Shown in pieces: positions 20,806 through 28,870 of a DNA stretch of 64,000 bases. Below the pieces are notes generated by a model, which was not told the origin of the DNA, ran no database searches, and saw only the letters and a program-made list of their open reading frames with translations. The position numbers and the translations under genes were made by a program. Source of the stretch: Azospirillum sp. TSA2s. Lineage in GTDB: Bacteria; Pseudomonadota; Alphaproteobacteria; Azospirillales; Azospirillaceae. Each line of letters begins with the position of its first letter. Position 1 is the first letter of the stretch. The stretch lies in NCBI RefSeq assembly GCF_004923315.1, contig NZ_CP039645.1:1-64000 (forward strand). Direction: 5' to 3'.

Positions 20806-21900
20806 TCATCGCCTTTGCCGTCTCGGTCGGGTGAGCAGCACGGCGGCAGTCAGCAGTTGGCCGAGCGTCCAGGCGGTCGCCGCGGCGGTCAGCAGGGGCA
20901 TCGACGGTATCCAGACCGCCGCCACACGGAGAGCGGCGGCGCTGGCCATCAGCGCGACGGCGACGGTGGCGGCGGGCGGGAAGCGCTCCGGCTCCGCCTC
21001 CCGCTGCAGGGTGGTGCGGATGGTCATGGCGCTGGCGAGGATGCCGAGCGCGCCGATCCCCAGCAGGTGCCAGCCGGCGGCGGGCGGCAGTTCGAACAGC
21101 GCCGCGCCAGCCACCAGGAGCCAGCCGGCGCCGAGGCAGAGATAGCCCAGATGCAGGCTGGCGATCTCCGGCTGGCGCAGCAGGCGATGGGGCTTCCAGC
21201 GGGCGAGGCGGAGGAGCGCGCTCGTCCCCGCCAGCGCGGCGCCGGCGCCACCCAGCAGCGGCAGCAGGCCGGTGGCGGCCGACAGCAGGCAGAGGGCGGC
21301 GCCGGCGATGCCCATCGCCTCCAGCCTCGGTTGGACTCGCTGCGTCAGGGTGATCCCCTGGCGGCGCAGGGCGCCGGCGGTCGCGGCGGGGATGACGCGT
21401 CCGCCCATGGTCAGCAGCAGCGTGGCGATCAGCAGCAGGCCGACCGGCTGGCCGACGCCTTGGACGAGGCCCAGTTGCGACGCCCAGAACAGTGCTTCGG
21501 CAAGCAGGAAAGCTCCGATCAGCGGGCCGAACACCGCGTTGTGGCCGCTGCGGCTGGTGCGCAGGAACGGCAGGCCGGCGACAATGAACAGCAGAACGGG
21601 ATAGGCGAAGGCGAGCGGCAGGGCCAGCGCCGCCGGCAGTCCGGCCAGCAGCGCCAGCCGTCCGGCGAGCCAGGACAGGAATGCCGCCGCCAGCATCGGG
21701 CGCGACAGCCGGGTCATCAGGAAGCCGCCGACCACCGCCAGCGCATAGCCCAGCGTCATCTCGTGGGCATGGATCGCCGGGGACCAGCCCAGCGGCAGCA
21801 GGCCGCCGATCTGCGCCAGCCACAGCGGAACGGCCAGCGCGGCGAAGAGGGACGCGGCCGGATACATCAGCCGGTGGGCGCTGGTGACGGGAGCGGGCAT
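20806..21900 (-). CDS. nnrS: NnrS family membrane protein
   Basis: 364 residues with about twelve hydrophobic helices. NnrS hallmarks are PLWLAQIGGLLPLGWSPAIH, AHEMTLGYALAVVGGFLMTR, RSGHNAVFGPLIGAFLLAEA and GGRVIPAATAGAL. The family are haem- and copper-containing membrane proteins made by denitrifiers that protect against nitric oxide and related stress. It is divergent from the Crp/Fnr regulator gene, and the 153-base shared promoter holds a degenerate FNR-like site. A short tandem repeat lies in its leader. Confidence 0.88.
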   Translation of the reverse strand: MPAPVTSAHRLMYPAASLFAALAVPLWLAQIGGLLPLGWSPAIHAHEMTLGYALAVVGGFLMTRLSRPMLAAAFLSWLAGRLALLAGLPAALALPLAFAYPVLLFIVAGLPFLRTSRSGHNAVFGPLIGAFLLAEALFWASQLGLVQGVGQPVGLLLIATLLLTMGGRVIPAATAGALRRQGITLTQRVQPRLEAMGIAGAALCLLSAATGLLPLLGGAGAALAGTSALLRLARWKPHRLLRQPEIASLHLGYLCLGAGWLLVAGAALFELPPAAGWHLLGIGALGILASAMTIRTTLQREAEPERFPPAATVAVALMASAAALRVAAVWIPSMPLLTAAATAWTLGQLLTAAVLLTRPRRQRR

Positions 21901-21918
21901 GGTATGGGGGCTTTCAAT

Positions 21919-21944
21919 GGTGCTGTCAGGCGGTGCTGTCAGGC
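21919..21944. repeat. 13-base tandem duplication in the nnrS leader
   Basis: Two exact adjacent copies of GGTGCTGTCAGGC, ending 18 bases upstream of the nnrS start codon on the minus strand. Such a duplication can arise by slippage and could change leader folding. Confidence 0.75.
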
Positions 21945-21988
21945 GGTGGCGTAGCGCGTCATTCTGGCGGCGGCCGGGATTTCGCGCT

Positions 21989-22002
21989 TTGAGCCGCAAC
22001 AA
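21989..22002. promoter_or_regulatory. Degenerate FNR/DNR-like site between nnrS and the regulator
   Basis: TTGAGCCGCAACAA keeps the outer TTG-N8-CAA of the FNR-family palindrome but not the inner bases. It is centred about 58 bases before the regulator start and about 96 before nnrS, so it could serve either. It is the weakest site of the series. Confidence 0.4.
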
Positions 22003-22053
22003 AGTCGTGCACGAATGGATACAGATCACGCACAGCGAGCCAGGACGACCGCC

Positions 22054-22794
22054 ATGCCCCCGCCCCCCGATCCCGCCGTTCTGCGCGGCATGCCGCTGTT
22101 CGCCGGCCTCGACGCCGGTGCGCTGGCCGACGCGGTGGCGCTGGCGCGGCCCCGGCTGCATCCCCGCGGCACCGCCGTCTTCACCCAGGGGGAGCCGGCG
22201 GCGGCCGGCCATGCGCTGATCGACGGGCGGGTGAAGATCGTGCAGACCGGCCCCGACGGGCAGCAGGTGGTGATGCGCTTCATCGGCCCCGGCGAGATGT
22301 TCGGGACGCTGGCCATCTTCACCGACGGGCTCTATCCGGCCGATGCGGTGGCGGTGGCCGATTGCGTCGAGCTGTCCTGGCCGGCGGCGACGATGACCGA
22401 GCTGATGGACCGCCATCCCGCCATCGCCCGCAACGCGCTGTCGATCATCGGCGGCCGGCTGCGCGAGTTGCAGAACCGCCTGCGCGAGGTGGCGACGGAG
22501 CGGGTGGAGCGCCGCATCGCCCACGCCCTGCTGCGGCTGGTGCGGCAGGCTGGACGGCGGGTCGAGGCGGGGGTGGAGATCGACTTTCCGCTGTCGCGCC
22601 AGGATGTGGCGGAGATGACGGGGACGACGCTGCACACGGTCAGCCGCACCCTGTCGGCCTGGGAAAGCCAGGGCATCGTCGAGAGCGGCCGGCAGCAGGT
22701 GGTGATCCGCAAGCCCCACGCGCTGGTCGTCATCGCCGAGGATCTGCCGCCGGTGCCGCCGCCGGTGAAGCCTCCGGTGCCTGGGCGGGAGTGA
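22054..22794 (+). CDS. Crp/Fnr family regulator, DNR/NnrR-like
   Basis: 246 residues from ATG 22054 (an ATG 39 bases earlier is possible). The N-terminal cyclic-nucleotide-like fold includes LFAGLDAGALADAVALARPR and QQVVMRFIGPGEMFGTLAIF. The C-terminal HTH_Crp is SRQDVAEMTGTTLHTVSRTL, with the recognition helix ending SRTLSAWESQGIV. There is no N-terminal Cys cluster, so it cannot be an oxygen-sensing [4Fe-4S] FNR; it fits the DNR/NnrR class that senses NO through haem. Its position among nnrS, hemerythrins, nos and nap, and the TTG-N8-CAA sites across the region, make it the likely local regulator. Confidence 0.85.
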   Translation: MPPPPDPAVLRGMPLFAGLDAGALADAVALARPRLHPRGTAVFTQGEPAAAGHALIDGRVKIVQTGPDGQQVVMRFIGPGEMFGTLAIFTDGLYPADAVAVADCVELSWPAATMTELMDRHPAIARNALSIIGGRLRELQNRLREVATERVERRIAHALLRLVRQAGRRVEAGVEIDFPLSRQDVAEMTGTTLHTVSRTLSAWESQGIVESGRQQVVIRKPHALVVIAEDLPPVPPPVKPPVPGRE

Positions 22795-22806
22795 TCTCCG
22801 GCAGGG

Positions 22807-22820
22807 TTGCTGTGGCGCAA
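22807..22820. promoter_or_regulatory. FNR/DNR-like site before the DUF1858 gene
   Basis: TTGCTGTGGCGCAA, matching TTG-N8-CAA with a near-symmetric TTGC/GCAA. It is centred about 70 bases before ATG 22883. A class II promoter would start near 22855, which rules out upstream ATGs in the same frame and supports the chosen start. Confidence 0.65.
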
Positions 22821-22882
22821 AGATCGCTTGCGGTGTGGTGGCTATGGTGGCGGCCTGTCCCCCTGTGCCGGAGCATGCGGAA

Positions 22883-23146
22883 ATGACGGTCGCCGATATG
22901 GCGCTTGCCGATATGAAGCTCGCCGATCTGACGATGGCCGAGCTGATGAGCGCGCGGCCGGCGGTGGTGCCGGTGCTGCTTCGCCATGGCCTCGCCTGCC
23001 CCGGCTGCGCCATGGCGCCCTTCATGACGGTGCGCGAGGCGGCCGAGGCCTATGGGTTGGAGCTTGACGCTTTCCTGGCCGATCTTGCCGCCGCGGACGG
23101 GCGGCCCGGCCATTCGATCGAGGCCCATTCGACGGAGACCCGGTGA
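22883..23146 (+). CDS. DUF1858 domain protein (CPGC motif)
   Basis: 87 residues, nearly all one DUF1858 domain: TMAELMSARPAVVPVLLRHG, ACPGCAMAPFMTVREAAEAY and GLELDAFLADLA. The conserved CxxC (ACPGC) and the fold resemble the ScdA_N/DUF542 domain that caps RIC iron-repair proteins. The start at 22883 has GGAG nine bases upstream and sits downstream of the FNR-like site. Its stop overlaps the next gene's start, so it is coupled to a hemerythrin, which together would correspond to a split RIC-like pair. This functional reading is an inference. Confidence 0.82.
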   Translation: MTVADMALADMKLADLTMAELMSARPAVVPVLLRHGLACPGCAMAPFMTVREAAEAYGLELDAFLADLAAADGRPGHSIEAHSTETR

Positions 23147-23649
23147 TGCACACCGACAGCCTGACCGGACGCATCCTGCATGACGACCATCACCGCGTGA
23201 TGGAGCTGCTGGATCGGCTGGAAGCCCTGTTCGGCCGCCATGGCGAGGACAGCCTGCCGGTGCTGACGGCGGAGGAACGCGACACCGTCGCCGCCCTGGC
23301 CGCGGAGCTGGACGGCCCGCTGGAGAGCCATTTCGCGGCGGAGGAGGCGCTGTTCCCGGCGCTGGCCGTGGCGGGCGGGCATGAGTGGACGGCCGACCTG
23401 CTGGACGACCACGAGCACATGCGCCCGATCATCCGGCGGCTGGGCCGCTTCTGCGCGCTGGCTCTGCGGGAGGGGTTCGATTGGGACAGCTGGCCGGTCT
23501 TTCGCAGCTTCGGCGAGGAACTCGTCCGCGCCCTGGTCCTGCACATCCAGAAGGAGGAGACGACGCTGGTGCCGGCCACCGACGCCCTGCTGTCGGTCGA
23601 GGAGGACCGGGCTTTCGCCTCCGCACTGGCAGGGGCGATGGCCGGCTGA
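23146..23649 (+). CDS. Hemerythrin HHE domain protein (first copy)
   Basis: 167 residues, four-helix hemerythrin-like protein. Likely diiron ligands are in DDHHRVMELLDR, ESHFAAEEALFPAL, DDHEHMRPIIRR and VLHIQKEETTLVPATD, arranged as H-HxxxE-HxxxD-like repeats. ATG 23146 overlaps the DUF1858 stop (TGATG); a GTG three bases earlier is possible. Diiron proteins of this class repair nitrosated or oxidised iron centres or scavenge NO and O2. The coupling to DUF1858 and position in a denitrification island favour nitrosative-stress repair. Confidence 0.85.
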   Translation: MHTDSLTGRILHDDHHRVMELLDRLEALFGRHGEDSLPVLTAEERDTVAALAAELDGPLESHFAAEEALFPALAVAGGHEWTADLLDDHEHMRPIIRRLGRFCALALREGFDWDSWPVFRSFGEELVRALVLHIQKEETTLVPATDALLSVEEDRAFASALAGAMAG

Positions 23650-23670
23650 GCGCCCCACCCTCTCCGGCGT

Positions 23671-23684
23671 TTGTGCTGGAGCAA
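23671..23684. promoter_or_regulatory. FNR/DNR-like site before the DUF2249 gene
   Basis: TTGTGCTGGAGCAA, of TTG-N8-CAA form, centred about 82 bases before ATG 23759 and 22 bases after the hemerythrin stop. It suggests the DUF2249 gene has its own promoter. Confidence 0.55.
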
Positions 23685-23758
23685 AGAAGGGGGCGGTGAT
23701 CCGGAGTACAGGGGGGCATGGCGATCCTGCCGCTCCCCCACAGACCAGACGGACGACG

Positions 23759-24274
23759 ATGCCGACCACCAACTCCCACGCCACCGCCCAGGCCGAACCG
23801 GTTCTCGATCTCCGCGCCATCCCGCCCTATCAGCGCCACCAGCTGATCTTCCAGTCGGTGCAGGACCTGACGCCCGGCGACGGTTTCTCGCTGGTCAACG
23901 ACCATGACCCGCGTCCGCTACACCACCAGCTGCTGAGCCTGTTCGGCGCCGGCTTCGCCTGGGAGTATCTGCAGCAGGGTCCCGAGGTCTGGCAGGTCCG
24001 CATCTCCCGGCCCGAAGGCGCGGTGGCGACCAGCCTGCGCGTGTGCATCGACCGCAACGGCGATGTGGCGGTCACGGCGGCGGATGCCCGGCTGGGGCCG
24101 GACGGCAGCGGCGCCTCGGTCTGCGAGGTGACGGACATCCCGCCGGGCACGCTGGAGGCCGACGTGCTGTCGCTGCTGCAGGGCGTGATCCCGCCGGCCG
24201 GCGTGGTCAGCATCGCGTATGAGCGGCTGCTGGCCCGGCGCAACGGCTCCTGCTGCGGCGGCATGTGCGGCTGA
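23759..24274 (+). CDS. DUF2249 domain protein
   Basis: 171 residues. The N-terminal about 75 residues match DUF2249 (LDLRAIPPYQRHQLIFQSVQ, GDGFSLVNDHDPRPLHHQLL, GFAWEYLQQGPEVWQVRISR). This SirA-like small domain is common beside hemerythrins and in denitrifiers. The second half (SLRVCIDRNGDVAVTAADAR, ASVCEVTDIPPGTLEADVLS) is less familiar, and the protein ends in a Cys-rich tail SCCGGMCG that could bind metal. No enzymatic role is established. Its FNR-like site suggests anaerobic or NO-responsive expression. Confidence 0.78.
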   Translation: MPTTNSHATAQAEPVLDLRAIPPYQRHQLIFQSVQDLTPGDGFSLVNDHDPRPLHHQLLSLFGAGFAWEYLQQGPEVWQVRISRPEGAVATSLRVCIDRNGDVAVTAADARLGPDGSGASVCEVTDIPPGTLEADVLSLLQGVIPPAGVVSIAYERLLARRNGSCCGGMCG

Positions 24275-24384
24275 GGACCCCGTTTGGCTGACGGTCAGGG
24301 TTGCGGCAACCATTCCTGTTCCGACCGGTTCTGTGTGGGGCGCTTCACCGCGTCGCACACAGAGTGCCGACTCAGGAGACAGGT

Positions 24385-25287
24385 ATGGACCGCAAGGACG
24401 ACACCGTCACGCCGCAGGACCCGCGCAGCAAATACCCGCGCCCGCCCTTCAACGGCCAGTCGCAGCCCTGGCCGGGGCTGGCACGCGACATGGATCCGCC
24501 GCCCGACCATGGCGAGACCAGCTACAAGGGCTCCGGCCGGCTGGCCGGGCGCAAGGCGCTGATCACCGGCGGCGATTCCGGCATTGGCCGGGCCGCCGCC
24601 ATCGCCTATGCCCGCGAGGGCGCCGACGTCGCCATCAACTATTTCCCCTCCGAAGAGCCGGATGCCCGTGAGGTCGTCGCGCTGATCGAGAAGGCCGGCC
24701 GCAAGGCGGTGGCGATTCCCGGCGACCTGCGCGACGAGGGCTTCTGCCGAAAGCTGGTGGCCGATGCGGTCGCGGGGCTTGGCGGGCTCGACATCGTCGT
24801 CTGCAACGCCGCGCGGCAGCAGGCCTTCCCGTCGATCCTCGACGTCAGCAGCGAGGAATTCGACGCGACGATGAAGACCAACATCTACGCCCCCTTCTGG
24901 ATCATCAAGGCCGCCCTGCCCCACCTGAAGCCGGGGTCGGTCATCATCGGCACCACGTCGGAACAGGCCTATGACCCGACGCCGGATCTGTACGCCTATG
25001 CCCAGACCAAGGCGGCGACGATGAATTACGTGAAGTCGCTGGCCAAGCAGCTGGCCGACAAGGGCATCCGCGTCAACGGCGTGGCTCCCGGCCCGATCTG
25101 GACCCCGCTTCAGGTCAGCGGCGGCGCCAGCCAGGAGAAGCTGAAGCAGTTCGGCAGCCAGACCCCGTTCGGCCGTCCGGGCCAGCCGGCGGAGCTTGCC
25201 AGCATCTATGTCCAGCTCGCTGCGGAGGATGCCAGCTTCACCACCGGCCATGTCTATGGCGCGGCGGGCGGCAGCGGTCAGCCGTAA
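24385..25287 (+). CDS. Short-chain dehydrogenase/reductase, YghA/general-stress type
   Basis: 300 residues. The long N-terminal extension (PRPPFNGQSQPWPGLARDMD) is typical of the YghA/YdaD-like SDR group. The Rossmann NAD(P) motif is TGGDSGIGRAAA, the structural motif is NAA, the catalytic Ser is in GTTSEQAYD, and the catalytic pair is YAYAQTK. GRPGQPAELASIYVQLAAED and FTTGHVYGAAGG are the usual C-terminal blocks. AGGAG precedes ATG 24385. These enzymes are often stress-induced oxidoreductases of unknown substrate. No FNR-like site lies directly in front. Confidence 0.9.
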   Translation: MDRKDDTVTPQDPRSKYPRPPFNGQSQPWPGLARDMDPPPDHGETSYKGSGRLAGRKALITGGDSGIGRAAAIAYAREGADVAINYFPSEEPDAREVVALIEKAGRKAVAIPGDLRDEGFCRKLVADAVAGLGGLDIVVCNAARQQAFPSILDVSSEEFDATMKTNIYAPFWIIKAALPHLKPGSVIIGTTSEQAYDPTPDLYAYAQTKAATMNYVKSLAKQLADKGIRVNGVAPGPIWTPLQVSGGASQEKLKQFGSQTPFGRPGQPAELASIYVQLAAEDASFTTGHVYGAAGGSGQP

Positions 25288-25297
25288 GCGGCGGAGC

Positions 25298-25450
25298 CTA
25301 CCCCATGACGTCCTCGCCGGACCGCCGGCGGGTGGATGGGGCGGTCCTGGTCCCGGCGATGTCCGACGTCAGAGTGAAACAGAGATCGCACCCGACCAGC
25401 AGGCCCAGGCTCAGGATCGACGTGGCGGCGGTGATGCAGAGGATGGTCAT
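25298..25450 (-). CDS. Small putative lipoprotein or membrane peptide
   Basis: 50 residues, start ATG 25450 with GGAG eight bases upstream. A hydrophobic stretch (residues 2-20, CITAATSILSLGLLVG) ends in LLVGC, which matches a lipobox, and is followed by a short polar tail (TRTAPSTRRRSGEDVMG). No basic residues precede the hydrophobic part, which is unusual for a signal peptide. No homologue is recognised. It lies divergent from the second hemerythrin. Confidence 0.4.
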   Translation of the reverse strand: MTILCITAATSILSLGLLVGCDLCFTLTSDIAGTRTAPSTRRRSGEDVMG

Positions 25451-25624
25451 GGGATCGCTCCGTCCGGCGAGGTTCGGCGCCGTCCATCCGACCGGGGGTG
25501 GTTTGCGGCGTTGGAGCGATCCTGGGCGCATCCGGAGTCTGGCGCTGTGAGTGGGGCCACAGTCGGGACTTTGTGACGCCGGGGCTGTGGGCCAATCACT
25601 GACAGTAGTGCGAATAGGAGTTGT

Positions 25625-25638
25625 TTGCGGTGGCGCAA
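25625..25638. promoter_or_regulatory. Perfect NNR/FNR-type palindrome before the second hemerythrin
   Basis: TTGCGGTGGCGCAA: a fully symmetric TTGCG-N4-CGCAA, centred about 83 bases before ATG 25715. This is one of the best sites of the set. Confidence 0.75.
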
Positions 25639-25714
25639 CGATGCCGCGGCCGCCCGTCGGCATGCTGGCTTCAACGCGGCCCAATCAAGGGCGGCCCCGG
25701 TTGGAGACAGCATC

Positions 25715-26161
25715 ATGTCCAAAGTCACCGTCAGCACCGCGCTCTACCGCGATCATCATGCCAATGTCGGCCAGTTGGTCGGGCGCATCGAAGCGCTGCT
25801 CGCCTCGCGCACCGTGGAGGCGGATCCGGCGGCGCTGATCGCCGCGGTGCGGGAGTTGTTCGGCACCTTCGCCGTCCATCTGTCGCTGGAGGACAGCGCG
25901 CTCTATCCCCGGCTGCTGGCCCATCCGGATGCCGCGCTGCGCAGCACGGCGGCGCGGTTCCAGACGGAAATGGGCGATCTGCGGGGGCGGTTCGACCAGT
26001 ACCGCACGCGCTGGCCCGGCCCGGTCGCCGTCGCCAAGGACCCGGCCGCCTTCATCCGCGAGACGCGGGAGGTGGTCGCCGCGCTGAAACACCGCATCGG
26101 CCGCGAGGACCGCGAGCTGTACGACCTGATCGACCGCGCCGGGCTGGCGAGTGCGGCCTGA
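25715..26161 (+). CDS. Hemerythrin HHE domain protein (second copy)
   Basis: 148 residues, four-helix hemerythrin-like. Putative ligands are in YRDHHANVGQLVGRIE, FAVHLSLEDSALYPRLLAHP, RFDQYRTRWPG and LKHRIGREDRELYDLIDRA. GGAG precedes ATG 25715. It differs clearly from the first copy, so the two are not a recent duplication. A perfect FNR-family palindrome lies upstream, and the next FNR-like site (ubiTUV) begins 25 bases after its stop. A role in NO or oxygen sensing or repair is likely but unproven. Confidence 0.84.
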   Translation: MSKVTVSTALYRDHHANVGQLVGRIEALLASRTVEADPAALIAAVRELFGTFAVHLSLEDSALYPRLLAHPDAALRSTAARFQTEMGDLRGRFDQYRTRWPGPVAVAKDPAAFIRETREVVAALKHRIGREDRELYDLIDRAGLASAA

Positions 26162-26172
26162 CGGCGGAGCCT

Positions 26173-26199
26173 TTCAAGCTTGAACTTGACCGAGGTCAA
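26173..26199. promoter_or_regulatory. FNR/DNR site of ubiTUV abutting a second palindrome
   Basis: TTGACCGAGGTCAA at 26186-26199 is a symmetric FNR-family site centred about 70 bases before ubiT. Directly upstream, separated by one base, is the 12-base perfect palindrome TTCAAGCTTGAA (26173-26184), which may bind a second factor. Confidence 0.75.
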
Positions 26200-26262
26200 T
26201 GACGTCAGGCGGTTACCGGCTTTCATGGGCGGCGGAATGACCGATGAGGAGGGAAGCCGCCC

Positions 26263-26940
26263 ATGCGCGATCCCGATGTCGCACCGAATGTTTTCGCCTC
26301 CGATGCCCCTGCCTTCTACGAGCGCGCCCGCCGGTTCGAGACCGGGTTGAGCCGGGCCGGTCTGGGGCTGGTGCCCAAGCTGGGGCGGCGGGCCAGCGAT
26401 GCGCTGCTCGCCCGGCTGCTGCGGCTGCTGGCCGAGCGGCATCCGCGTGCCTTCGAGGCGCTGCGCGAGATGCCGGACGCCCGCGTGCTGATCGAACCGG
26501 TGGACGCGCCGGTCGCCCTGCTGATGCGTGTCGGACATGATCTGTCGCTGCATGCCCTGCCCCGTGGGGTCGACGGTGTGGACGAGACGGGGGCCGACGC
26601 GGTGGTCCGGGGGCCTTATGCCCGGCTGCTCGACCTGCTGGAGGGACGGATCGACGGCGATGCGCTGTTCTTCCGGCGCGAACTGAGCATTTCCGGCGAC
26701 ACCGCGCTGATCCTGGCATTGCGCAACACGCTGGATGGCGAGGAGGAGATGGATCTGGTCGCCGACGCCGCTTCCATCGCCGGGCCGCTGGCCCGCGCCC
26801 TGCCGGTGCTGCGGCGCAATGCCGGGCCGGTGCTGGACCGGATCGAGGCGGCGCGCCGGCTGCTGCCGCCGCCGTTGCGGCGGGGGATCGAGCGGGTGGA
26901 GGCGCGCATCACCGGGGTGCTGCCGGGCACGAGGGCCTAA
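26263..26940 (+). CDS. ubiT: UbiT, SCP2-domain protein for anaerobic ubiquinone synthesis
   Basis: 225 residues. The central SCP2-like lipid-binding domain is recognised by VRGPYARLLDLLEGRIDGDA and FFRRELSISGDTALILALRN, the same blocks as E. coli UbiT (YhbT). UbiT is a lipid-binding accessory protein that, with UbiU and UbiV, supports oxygen-independent ubiquinone synthesis. The gene lies 6 bases upstream of ubiU and is first in the operon behind an FNR-family site. The N-terminal about 40 residues are longer than in the E. coli protein. Confidence 0.87.
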   Translation: MRDPDVAPNVFASDAPAFYERARRFETGLSRAGLGLVPKLGRRASDALLARLLRLLAERHPRAFEALREMPDARVLIEPVDAPVALLMRVGHDLSLHALPRGVDGVDETGADAVVRGPYARLLDLLEGRIDGDALFFRRELSISGDTALILALRNTLDGEEEMDLVADAASIAGPLARALPVLRRNAGPVLDRIEAARRLLPPPLRRGIERVEARITGVLPGTRA

Positions 26941-26946
26941 GGAATC

Positions 26947-27945
26947 ATGGACAATTTCGAGCTGATCTGCCCGGCGGGGACGCCGGCCGCGCTGCGCGCC
27001 GCCGTCGATGCCGGGGCCGATGCCGTCTATCTCGGCTTCCGGGACGAAACCAACGCCCGCAATTTTCCGGGGCTGAACTTCACCCGGCAGGATGTCGCCG
27101 ACGCGGTGGATTACGCCCATGCGCGCCGCGTCGAGGTCTATGTCGCCATCAACACCTATCCGCAGGCGGGCAATCTCGGCCCCTGGCAGAAGGCGGTGGA
27201 CGATGCGGCGCGGTTGAAGGTGGATGCCGTCATCCTGGCCGATCCGGGGCTGCTGGCCTATGCCGCCAAGCGGCATCCCGACCTGCGGCTGCACCTGTCG
27301 GTCCAGGCCTCCGCCGCCAATGTCGAGGCGATCCGGCTGTACCGCGATGCCTTCGGCGTGCGGCGCGTCGTGCTGCCGCGCGTGCTGACGGTGCCGGAAA
27401 TCGCCAAGCTGAACGCCGAGATCGACATCGAGACCGAGGTGTTCGTCTTCGGCGGGCTCTGCCCGATGGCGGAGGGGCGCTGTTCGCTGTCCTCCTACGC
27501 CACCGGCCTGTCGCCCAACAAGCAGGGCGTCTGTTCGCCGGCCAACCATGTCCGCTACGAGCAGCGGGGCGGCGCGCTGGCCTCCACGCTGGGCGGCTTC
27601 ACCATCAACGTGTTCGGCGAGGCCGAGCAGGCCGGCTATCCGACGCTGTGCAAGGGCCGCTTCGTCGCTGGTGACGGCGTCGGGGAGGGGCCGGCCTATC
27701 TGTTCGAGGAGCCGACCAGCCTGAACGCGATGGACCTGCTGCCGGAACTGAAGGCGGCCGGCGTGCGGGCGCTGAAGATCGAGGGACGGCAGCGCGGCAA
27801 GGCCTATATCGCCGCGGTGGTGCGTGCCTATCGCGAGGCGCTGGAGAGTTTCGCCGCCGGGCGGCCGGTGTCGCACATCGATCTGCAGGCGATGGTCGAG
27901 GGCGGGACCCAGACCACCGGTGCCTATACCCGCGGATGGCGGTGA
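26947..27945 (+). CDS. ubiU: UbiU, U32 peptidase-like O2-independent ubiquinone hydroxylation protein
   Basis: 332 residues, U32 family. Blocks include LICPAGTPAALRAAVDAGAD, AVYLGFRDETNARNFPGLNF and LHLSVQASAANVEAI. The four Cys expected for the [4Fe-4S] cluster are seen in FGGLCPMAEGRCSL, NKQGVCSPANHV and PTLCKGRF. UbiU forms a complex with UbiV that hydroxylates ubiquinone precursors without O2, using prephenate as oxygen source in E. coli. It would supply quinone for the nap and nos electron chains encoded nearby. Confidence 0.93.
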   Translation: MDNFELICPAGTPAALRAAVDAGADAVYLGFRDETNARNFPGLNFTRQDVADAVDYAHARRVEVYVAINTYPQAGNLGPWQKAVDDAARLKVDAVILADPGLLAYAAKRHPDLRLHLSVQASAANVEAIRLYRDAFGVRRVVLPRVLTVPEIAKLNAEIDIETEVFVFGGLCPMAEGRCSLSSYATGLSPNKQGVCSPANHVRYEQRGGALASTLGGFTINVFGEAEQAGYPTLCKGRFVAGDGVGEGPAYLFEEPTSLNAMDLLPELKAAGVRALKIEGRQRGKAYIAAVVRAYREALESFAAGRPVSHIDLQAMVEGGTQTTGAYTRGWR

Positions 27946-27958
27946 GGAGTTTTACGGA

Positions 27959-28870
27959 ATGACTGCGTCACTCACTTTGGGGCCGGTGCTGTTCAACTGG
28001 CCGGTCGACCGCTGGCGCGACTTCTACGCCCGCATCGCCGACGAGGCGCCGGTGGACACGGTGATCGTCGGCGAGATCGTCTGCTTCAAGCGGGCGCCCT
28101 TCTTCGCCGAGGCGATGGGGGACGTGATCGAACGGCTGAGCGCCGCCGGCAAGACGGTGTGGCTCGCCAGCCCGATCCTGGTCGGCAGCGAGCGCGAACG
28201 GGCGGCGATGCGCGATCTGGTGGAGTCCGATGCCGGGCTGCCCGACGGCGGGCTGATCGAGGCGAACGACATGGGGGCGCTGGCCCTGCTGGCCGGGCGG
28301 CCCCATGCGGTCGGGCCGACGATCAACGTCTACAACGAGGCGACGCTGGGCTGGATGGCCGGGCGCGGCGCGGTGGCGGTGTCGCTGCCGGCGGAACTGC
28401 CGGCGGCCACCGTCGCGGTGCTGGCCAAGGCCGGGCGGGACCTGGGGGTGGAGACCGAGGTGCAGGTCTGGGGACGGGCGCCGCTCGCCATCTCGGCCCG
28501 CTGCTATCACGCGCGCGCCCATGGGCTGCACAAGGACGGCTGCCAGTTCGTCTGCGGCAACGACCCGGACGGCATGCCGGTGACGACGATGGACGGCCAG
28601 CCGTTCCTGACCGTCAACGGGACGCAGACGATGTCGCACGGCTGTTTGTGCCTGGCGGCGGAGATGAATGAGTTGGTGGAGATGGGGGTTTCGCGCTTCC
28701 GCCTGTCGCCGCAGGCGATGGACATGGTGCGCGTCGCCGAGGCGTTCCGGGCGGTGCTGGATGGGCAGCGCGACGGGGCGGAGGTCGCCGCGGAACTGGG
28801 CGGGCTGATCGACGCGCCGCTGGTGAACGGGTTCTACCACGACACCGCGGGGGCGCTGCGGGTGGCGTGA
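27959..28870 (+). CDS. ubiV: UbiV, partner of UbiU
   Basis: 303 residues, U32 family, shorter than UbiU as usual. Motifs are LGPVLFNWPVDRWRDFYARI, TVIVGEIVCFKRAPFF (Cys42) and SARCYHARAHGLHKDGCQFV plus CGND, which supply the four cluster Cys; SHGCLCLAAEMNEL follows. The start at 27959 lies 13 bases after the ubiU stop. The operon ends here; a GC-rich inverted repeat follows. Confidence 0.93.
   Translation: MTASLTLGPVLFNWPVDRWRDFYARIADEAPVDTVIVGEIVCFKRAPFFAEAMGDVIERLSAAGKTVWLASPILVGSERERAAMRDLVESDAGLPDGGLIEANDMGALALLAGRPHAVGPTINVYNEATLGWMAGRGAVAVSLPAELPAATVAVLAKAGRDLGVETEVQVWGRAPLAISARCYHARAHGLHKDGCQFVCGNDPDGMPVTTMDGQPFLTVNGTQTMSHGCLCLAAEMNELVEMGVSRFRLSPQAMDMVRVAEAFRAVLDGQRDGAEVAAELGGLIDAPLVNGFYHDTAGALRVA

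Follow-up and report, generated by a model that had tools for sequence, protein, structure and literature searches.

Three small genes, for a DUF1858 protein, a hemerythrin-like protein (HEMA) and a DUF2249 protein, lie in a row near denitrification genes in Azospirillum sp. TSA2s, within the first 64,000 nucleotides of contig NZ_CP039645.1 (assembly GCF_004923315.1; this stretch is called the window below), and the question is what holds them together. The initial annotation took the first two proteins for the halves of a split RIC/ScdA-type di-iron repair protein, and the trio for a distributed system of nitrosative damage repair or nitric oxide (NO) handling. The explanation that we prefer, which we hold tentatively and at somewhat less than an even chance, is an NnrR-controlled accessory cluster of denitrification or the NO response, with a stand-alone, ScdA_N-like DUF1858 protein as its core, to which a hemA gene is coupled in one Azospirillum lineage.

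The NnrR-type Regulator and its Boxes

A genome-wide search of this 8.1-Mb genome (G000) found one DUF1858 gene and one DUF2249 gene. Both belong to a cluster at positions 20806–28870 with the order nnrS (minus strand), Crp/Fnr regulator, DUF1858, hemA, DUF2249, an SDR gene, a second hemerythrin-like gene (hemB), and ubiT-ubiU-ubiV. We take the Crp/Fnr regulator (22015–22794, plus strand; PF00027 and PF13545) as the NnrR orthologue, because the nnrR-type protein of locus L094, from a genome with the nnrS-nnrR-DUF1858 order as in Bradyrhizobium, matches it best (49% identity, 238.7 bits vs. 68.7 bits for the next of 14 matches; orthology being the best match in one direction only), and because nnrS (20806–21915, minus strand, start coordinate unrefined; PF05940, 202.3 bits vs. 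a cut-off of 28) is divergent from it.

The strict FNR site TTGATN4ATCAA does not occur anywhere in the window. The site upstream of DUF2249 that had been called FNR-like is indeed this gene's own, but it is better taken as an NnrR-type box. Such boxes, of the form TTG-N8-CAA, precede DUF1858 (TTGCTGTGGCGCAA, 22807–22820), DUF2249 (TTGTGCTGGAGCAA, 23671–23684) and hemB (TTGCGGTGGCGCAA, 25625–25638), all on the plus strand, as well as ubiT (TTGACCGAGGTCAA). In total the window contains 13 occurrences of this pattern vs. 6.0 expected, a number reached in 1 of 100 shuffles. Conservation was counted within 300 nt upstream of each gene, with the expectation taken from mononucleotide shuffles. By this count DUF1858 has a box in 26 of 28 Azospirillum loci (0.5 expected) and in 21 of 22 other alphaproteobacterial loci (0.9 expected; L083 left out), DUF2249 in all 19 Azospirillum loci where it was seen (0.4 expected), hemB in 9 of 10 loci (0.2 expected), and ubiT in each of the 14 Azospirillum loci whose fetched region contains it (0.3 expected); for DUF1858 loci outside the Alphaproteobacteria the figure is 3 of 17 (1.2 expected). 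Nearly all DUF1858, DUF2249 and hemB boxes are of the type TTGC/TTGT...GCAA/ACAA and those of ubiT are TTGA...TCAA. That DUF1858, DUF2249 and hemB bear conserved NnrR-type boxes in Azospirillum is secure. In the coupled loci hemA has no box of its own upstream, which fits the second gene of an operon.

Both marks of an NnrR regulon, the NnrR orthologue and boxes of the TTG-N8-CAA type, are thus present, and NnrR probably controls these genes of the window directly. In Bradyrhizobium diazoefficiens, the DUF1858 gene bsl7085, the tag after nnrR (blr7084), shows a 29.2-fold drop in the nnrR mutant, a 133.8-fold rise in anoxia and a box, TTGCGCTCCAACAA, at -62 (PMC6710368, Table 1); a sterol-binding/U32 gene pair (UbiT/UbiU-V type) is also NnrR-dependent (PMC6710368). 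Beyond this table, our literature search found no paper joining NnrR with DUF1858; for NnrR and hemerythrin it found three, PMC1274295 among them. The window shares with nnrS-nnrR-bsl7085 the DUF1858 tag next to nnrR, the NnrR-type box and the divergent nnrS (PMC6710368). Unlike the window, the loci L091 and L093–L095, which appear Bradyrhizobium-like from their gene order, have nnrR and DUF1858 in convergent orientation and lack both a hemerythrin gene within 1 kb and a DUF2249 gene within 3 kb.

DUF1858 as a Neighbor of NnrR-type Regulators

DUF1858 is uncommon in the class, with matches in 11 of 289 genomes at E 0.001 (six over the cut-off), and occurs in 47 of the 397 genomes of a phylum-wide sample. 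Outside Azospirillum, 22 of 23 alphaproteobacterial loci have a homolog of the regulator no more than 1 kb from DUF1858 (20 pairs convergent, two tandem), and 16 of the 23 have nnrS within 8 kb. The sole exception for the regulator, L083, has no match with the profile used, from which L013 was omitted. In Azospirillum, 26 of 28 loci have the regulator no more than 1 kb away; of the other two, L202 has it on the far side of nnrS, and L225 starts where its contig starts. Given the 14 matches of the regulator type in the 8.1 Mb of G000, we estimate chance adjacency at under 1%. That DUF1858 almost always has an NnrR-type regulator beside it in the alphaproteobacterial loci examined is secure. The DUF1858 matches of G075 and G169 (E 8e-4) have no regulator match in their 3-kb loci, the only extent viewed. 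Non-alphaproteobacterial matches came from 28 genomes, 17 of which were fetched as larger regions; among these 17 no regulator was found within 1 kb, and nnrS was likewise not seen. The 11 genomes left out (G299, G302, G311, G314, G324, G332, G346, G374, G382, G389, and G508) are, except for G382, all under the cut-off.

The alphaproteobacterial genome G080 carries four DUF1858 copies (L018, L023, L024, and L025; three of them viewed in short loci only), each with an NnrR-like regulator about 120 nt away. In L202 (1427–1834) the gene after DUF1858 appears to encode a DUF59/SufT-like iron-sulfur assembly protein (PF01883), and by sequence likeness so does its counterpart in another Azospirillum locus, L211, which would be another link of DUF1858 to metal-centre maturation.

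Such constancy might mean that DUF1858 is primarily a thiol-redox modulator of NnrR, much as DrpB affects the Dnr regulators of Thermus, with the hemerythrin and DUF2249 as co-regulated passengers. We consider this unlikely. It would account for the proximity of the regulator in convergent and tandem loci alike, in all four copies of G080, and for DUF1858 in genomes without a hemerythrin among the matches listed; moreover, mutations in Thermus drpA and drpB alter transcription from the dnr and nar promoters (PMC6282519). However, a mere regulon member would also be expected to adjoin its regulator, DUF1858 outside the Alphaproteobacteria lacks such a neighbor (0 of 17 loci), and in the Thermus double mutant nitrate reductase protein is present yet has little activity, a sign that maturation is involved in addition to signalling (PMC6282519). 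DrpA and DrpB resemble the proteins of the window in that DUF2249 and DUF1858 occur in a nitrate-respiration cluster, with expression dependent on the regulator DnrT. They differ in that DrpB has DUF1858 fused to two DUF2249 domains, whereas the genes of the window are separate, and in that the passages of the source at hand propose them as nitrate sensors and mention no hemerythrin (PMC6282519).

DUF1858 and the ScdA_N Domain

The DUF1858 gene occupies 22883–23146 on the plus strand (ATG at 22883, stop at 23144–23146). Scanned from a longer open reading frame start at 22835, its product exceeds the cut-offs of PF08984 (37.9 vs. 32.2 bits) and of TIGR03980 (61.9 vs. 44.95 bits), a model that we take, by its name alone, to be tied to the hybrid cluster protein, and it contains the CxxC motif CPGC. 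Its stop overlaps the start of hemA (23146–23649, plus strand, ATG at 23146) by one base (TGATG), so that the translational coupling of the CPGC-bearing DUF1858 protein to a hemerythrin had been correctly described, including coordinates and domains.

An AlphaFold2 model of the DUF1858 protein (11 sequences, pLDDT 74.8, pTM 0.61) has a predicted fold that resembles ScdA_N. Besides solved DUF1858 structures, Foldseek finds the N-terminal domain of YtfE with probabilities of 0.98 and 0.95 at E-values of 0.5–0.87 (probability 0.72 for 5fnn_B). Compared with YtfE residues 2–70, the model gives Z 7.5–8.0 over 52–65 residues, namely 8.0 over 65 residues for 5fny_B (root mean square deviation 4.5), 7.9 over 63 for 5fnn_A (2.4) and 7.5 over 52 for 5fnp_B (1.7), and the next unrelated row has Z 5.4; this is similarity and not proof, as small helical folds may score by chance. 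At the sequence level, the solved relatives of DUF1858 are 2k5e and 2k53. In a profile comparison (hhalign), 65 DUF1858 sequences vs. 15 ScdA_N sequences score 28.6 with a probability of 86%, and the 50 alphaproteobacterial DUF1858 sequences alone score 22.6 (48%), vs. a peak of 16.7 in 100 column shuffles of this alphaproteobacterial set and controls of 8.5 for DUF2249 and 6.8 for hemerythrin. The window protein lacks the ScdA_N motif DfCCgG and has ACPGCAMA instead, and PF04405 has no match in the genome. DUF1858 has been recorded among selenoproteins in a CxxU form (PMC9312934), which favours redox chemistry.

HEMA and the Comparison with RIC

HEMA (PF01814, 62.4 bits vs. a cut-off of 25.3) was aligned with 15 RICs, which remained of 17 ScdA_N loci after L230 and L236 had been dropped, with ligand identities after PMC9268430. 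It keeps all six RIC di-iron ligand columns (four His, two Glu), which are complete in five of six HEMA rows, and a metal site in HEMA is therefore probable. No intact RIC (TIGR03652) was matched in G000, where the ScdA_N-like and hemerythrin types are in separate genes, and none of the 45 Azospirillum genomes has a RIC over the cut-off, one giving a weak partial match. A search by sequence found no convincing solved relatives for HEMA or DUF2249.

RIC, YtfE and ScdA share with the proteins of the window the hemerythrin fold and its ligand series H, HxxxE, H, HxxxE, the nitrosative-stress setting and, in 3 of the 15 aligned RICs, a C-terminal Cys tail; in addition, their helical N-terminal domain, ScdA_N, which bears a Cys pair, is similar to the DUF1858 model. 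In contrast to RIC the window has two genes, DUF1858 has CPGC where RIC has CCGG, and DUF1858 elsewhere is present without a hemerythrin. In Staphylococcus aureus ScdA the N-terminal domain is non-catalytic, yet it improves the nitrite reductase activity of the di-iron domain (PMC12412097), and by analogy a separate DUF1858 protein could give similar help. A more far-reaching version would have the nnrR-adjacent DUF1858 act as a free ScdA_N-type redox arm of the alphaproteobacterial NO response that serves several clients in trans and, in Azospirillum, reconstitutes RIC from two or three subunits together with HEMA and DUF2249; this we hold to be doubtful. The earlier remark that the chemistry is not described holds only in part: DUF1858 is listed in an NnrR regulon table, with no function given in the passages at hand (PMC6710368), the genetics of DrpAB has been worked on (PMC6282519), and RIC/ScdA proteins are now regarded as nitrite reductases.

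DUF2249, its Fold and its Fusions

The DUF2249 gene (23759–24274, plus strand) encodes a protein that scores 89.6 bits vs. a cut-off of 29.5 and ends in a tail, RRNGSCCGGMCG, visible directly in the translation, which confirms the domain and the Cys-rich SCCGGMCG end given in the initial annotation. SCCGGMCG forms the C-terminal end of all seven aligned Azospirillum DUF2249 proteins. Cys-rich ends much like it occur in the RICs L228 (GSCCGSCQ), L233 (SCCCGSCGG), and L234 (AACC).

A model of the protein (7 sequences, pLDDT 79.2, pTM 0.51) has its best rows with TusA/SirA-like structures over about residues 10–88 (Z 8.0–8.3), followed by unrelated Alba-type rows at Z 7.1, and no Foldseek match reaches E 0.001; a TusA-like fold of residues 11–88 is thus a weak call from the predicted structure. 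It agrees with an alphaproteobacterial protein, L013, in which DUF1858 and DUF2249 are joined to a third DUF2249/TusA-like domain, the last domain giving a weak Pfam match to TusA (18.5 bits vs. a cut-off of 28.6); the DUF1858 domain of L013 contains no Cys. TusA uses a catalytic Cys in the N-terminal part of its domain. Residues 1–88 of the DUF2249 protein contain no Cys and hence no TusA-type persulfide site, so that the protein shares with TusA/SirA the predicted fold and has the Cys-rich C-terminal tail instead of the domain Cys. Our literature search found no paper joining DUF2249 with TusA.

In L149 and L152, from other genomes of the phylum, DUF2249 is fused ahead of a hemerythrin (frames of 243 and 229 aa), with DUF2249 domains just under the Pfam cut-off (28.3 and 28.7 vs. 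29.5 bits); this layout is the same as that of ScdA_N and hemerythrin in RIC. Together with the DUF1858-DUF2249 protein, these natural fusions show that the domain types recombine and support a joint RIC-like role. DUF2249 (COG4309) is also probably co-transcribed with nor genes elsewhere (PMC1274295) and is induced in haloarchaeal denitrification (PMC11218638), and by analogy these links and Thermus DrpAB match an accessory role in nitrogen-oxide respiration.

How General the Trio and the hemA Coupling Are

The spacing between DUF1858 and hemA in the six full-length coupled loci is -1 (window), -19, -19, -1, 0, and -1. DUF2249 lies within 3 kb of DUF1858 in 19 of the 28 Azospirillum loci. In a tree of NnrR only (27 Azospirillum rows and three outgroups; 9 of the 27 inner branches are starred), the seven hemA loci all belong to one well-supported set of 12 rows, five of which lack hemA. 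The starred branches force at least four changes of hemA, so that the coupling either originated within the set, with several later losses, or evolved more than once; the hemA label clusters weakly (40 of 500 shuffles were as low).

Iterated profiles from the two hemerythrins of the window were narrow (9 and 5 matches), and PF01814 was used instead in 29 chosen DUF1858 genomes. HEMA homologs at E < 1e-20, a cut picked after viewing the match list, occur in 18 of 28 Azospirillum genomes with DUF1858 vs. 1 of 17 without it (Fisher p 1.2e-4, uncorrected for relatedness), and at E 0.001 in 22 of the 45 genomes, 19 of these with DUF1858. Four HEMA relatives with 56–57% identity were fetched. L259 has a COX3-type, probably NorE-like, gene within 1 kb, and L260 and L262 have a multicopper, probably NirK-like, gene at this distance, which would link this group of hemerythrins with denitrification also where it does not adjoin DUF1858; in L261 neither type was seen.

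General clustering of the trio was considered and rejected, as DUF1858 and DUF2249 are rarely close outside a few genomes. DUF2249 is present in 28 of the 47 DUF1858 genomes of the phylum sample (Fisher p 7e-13, uncorrected for relatedness), 22 of these 28 being outside the class; inside it, 6 of 19 DUF1858 genomes have DUF2249. The two lie on one contig within 5 kb in 5 of the 28 (G000, G440, G615, G363, and G317; read by eye). Regarding co-occurrence, which the initial annotation had proposed as a check, the regulator-DUF1858 pair and the boxes are conserved, but the trio is not generally so.

Several observations weigh against the explanation that we prefer. HEMA scores 19.5 bits vs. the RIC (TIGR03652) cut-off of 204.7, and the resemblance is therefore one of layout and metal-site residues and not of family membership; HEMA of L226 has Ala in place of one bridging Glu. 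The Foldseek E-values for YtfE are 0.5–2.3, and the 15 non-alphaproteobacterial DUF1858 sequences alone score 16.4 over nine columns against ScdA_N, within the shuffles. No fusion of DUF1858 with a hemerythrin was found among the loci examined, and the two halves need not act together because a neisserial RIC without ScdA_N retains its di-iron site (PMC9268430). A coupled hemA is found in 7 of 28 Azospirillum DUF1858 loci, one of which (L205) has a short remnant, and the closest relative of the window, L210, whose NnrR is identical over 242 columns, has no hemA at its DUF1858 locus; it carries a 56% HEMA relative 4.9 kb away. Hemerythrins were not found within 1 kb in 22 alphaproteobacterial DUF1858 loci outside Azospirillum, and 5 of the 29 DUF1858 genomes searched show no PF01814 hemerythrin among the matches listed, so that DUF1858 must work without a hemerythrin there. 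No box was found in the 300 nt before the HEMA relatives L259–L262, but one precedes the relative in L211. The "two halves of RIC" are supported by the ScdA_N-like predicted fold and profile, the six ligands and the absence of RIC over the cut-off from the 45 genomes, but the hemerythrin is not the conserved partner of DUF1858.

These data might suggest that the genes are independent members of the NnrR regulon, a small redox protein, an NO- or O2-binding hemerythrin and a nor/nap-related DUF2249 protein, which are clustered by regulation only. DUF2249 is preceded by a box of its own and, in 11 of the 28 Azospirillum loci, is transcribed divergently from nnrR; it has been reported with nor genes (PMC1274295) and in haloarchaeal denitrification (PMC11218638), and of the 12 loci in the hemA clade five lack hemA. 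We nevertheless regard this as possible at best, since five of the six full-length loci have an overlap of 1 or 19 bases between DUF1858 and hemA, which abut in the sixth, an ScdA_N-like predicted fold stands beside a RIC-like metal site, the same domain types form natural fusions, and HEMA is concentrated in genomes with DUF1858. A chance neighborhood without functional meaning would agree with the confinement of the trio order to one set of Azospirillum loci and with the weak clustering of the hemA label; it is strongly disfavoured and very improbable, as the conserved NnrR-type boxes are far above the shuffled expectation and the regulator-DUF1858 pair is kept across several families.

Other Genes of the Window

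HEMB (25712–26161, plus strand) is missing two of the six RIC-type ligands in every one of the eight rows aligned and, judged from these residues, may no longer hold a di-iron site, although hemB has an NnrR-type box to itself in 9 of 10 loci. HEMB adjoins DUF1858 in 4 of the 28 Azospirillum loci, all of them other than the seven with coupled hemA, once in tandem and three times convergently. The genes ubiT-ubiU-ubiV for O2-independent ubiquinone synthesis follow at 26186–28870, with the TTGA...TCAA box upstream of ubiT. NosZ, NapA, NapC, UbiT, UbiU, UbiV, and NnrS all exceed their curated cut-offs, and the NosR- and NapB-like genes give clear matches, yet below their own cut-offs. On the minus strand lie nosZ and the nosR-like gene, and on the plus strand napA, a nap cytochrome gene and napC. 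The denitrification setting claimed for the trio is thus borne out by the nnrS-nnrR, nos, nap, and ubiTUV genes nearby.

Proposed Function

In the accessory cluster that we prefer, NO would activate NnrR, which would induce DUF1858-hemA and DUF2249. The di-iron site of HEMA might then bind or reduce NO or nitrite, or lend iron. The DUF1858 protein, presumably in physical association with HEMA, would act in trans like ScdA_N, as a thiol electron partner or an oligomerisation partner, and DUF2249, with its putative TusA fold and its Cys tail, might deliver metal or sulfur species to damaged centres or remove them from there.

Denitrifiers repeatedly contain DUF1858 and DUF2249, and linking DUF1858 with the ScdA_N fold and, in several alphaproteobacterial families, with NnrR-type regulators would give it a concrete, testable role. 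If the proposal is true, a split RIC would allow the debated function of ScdA_N to be assayed as a separate protein.

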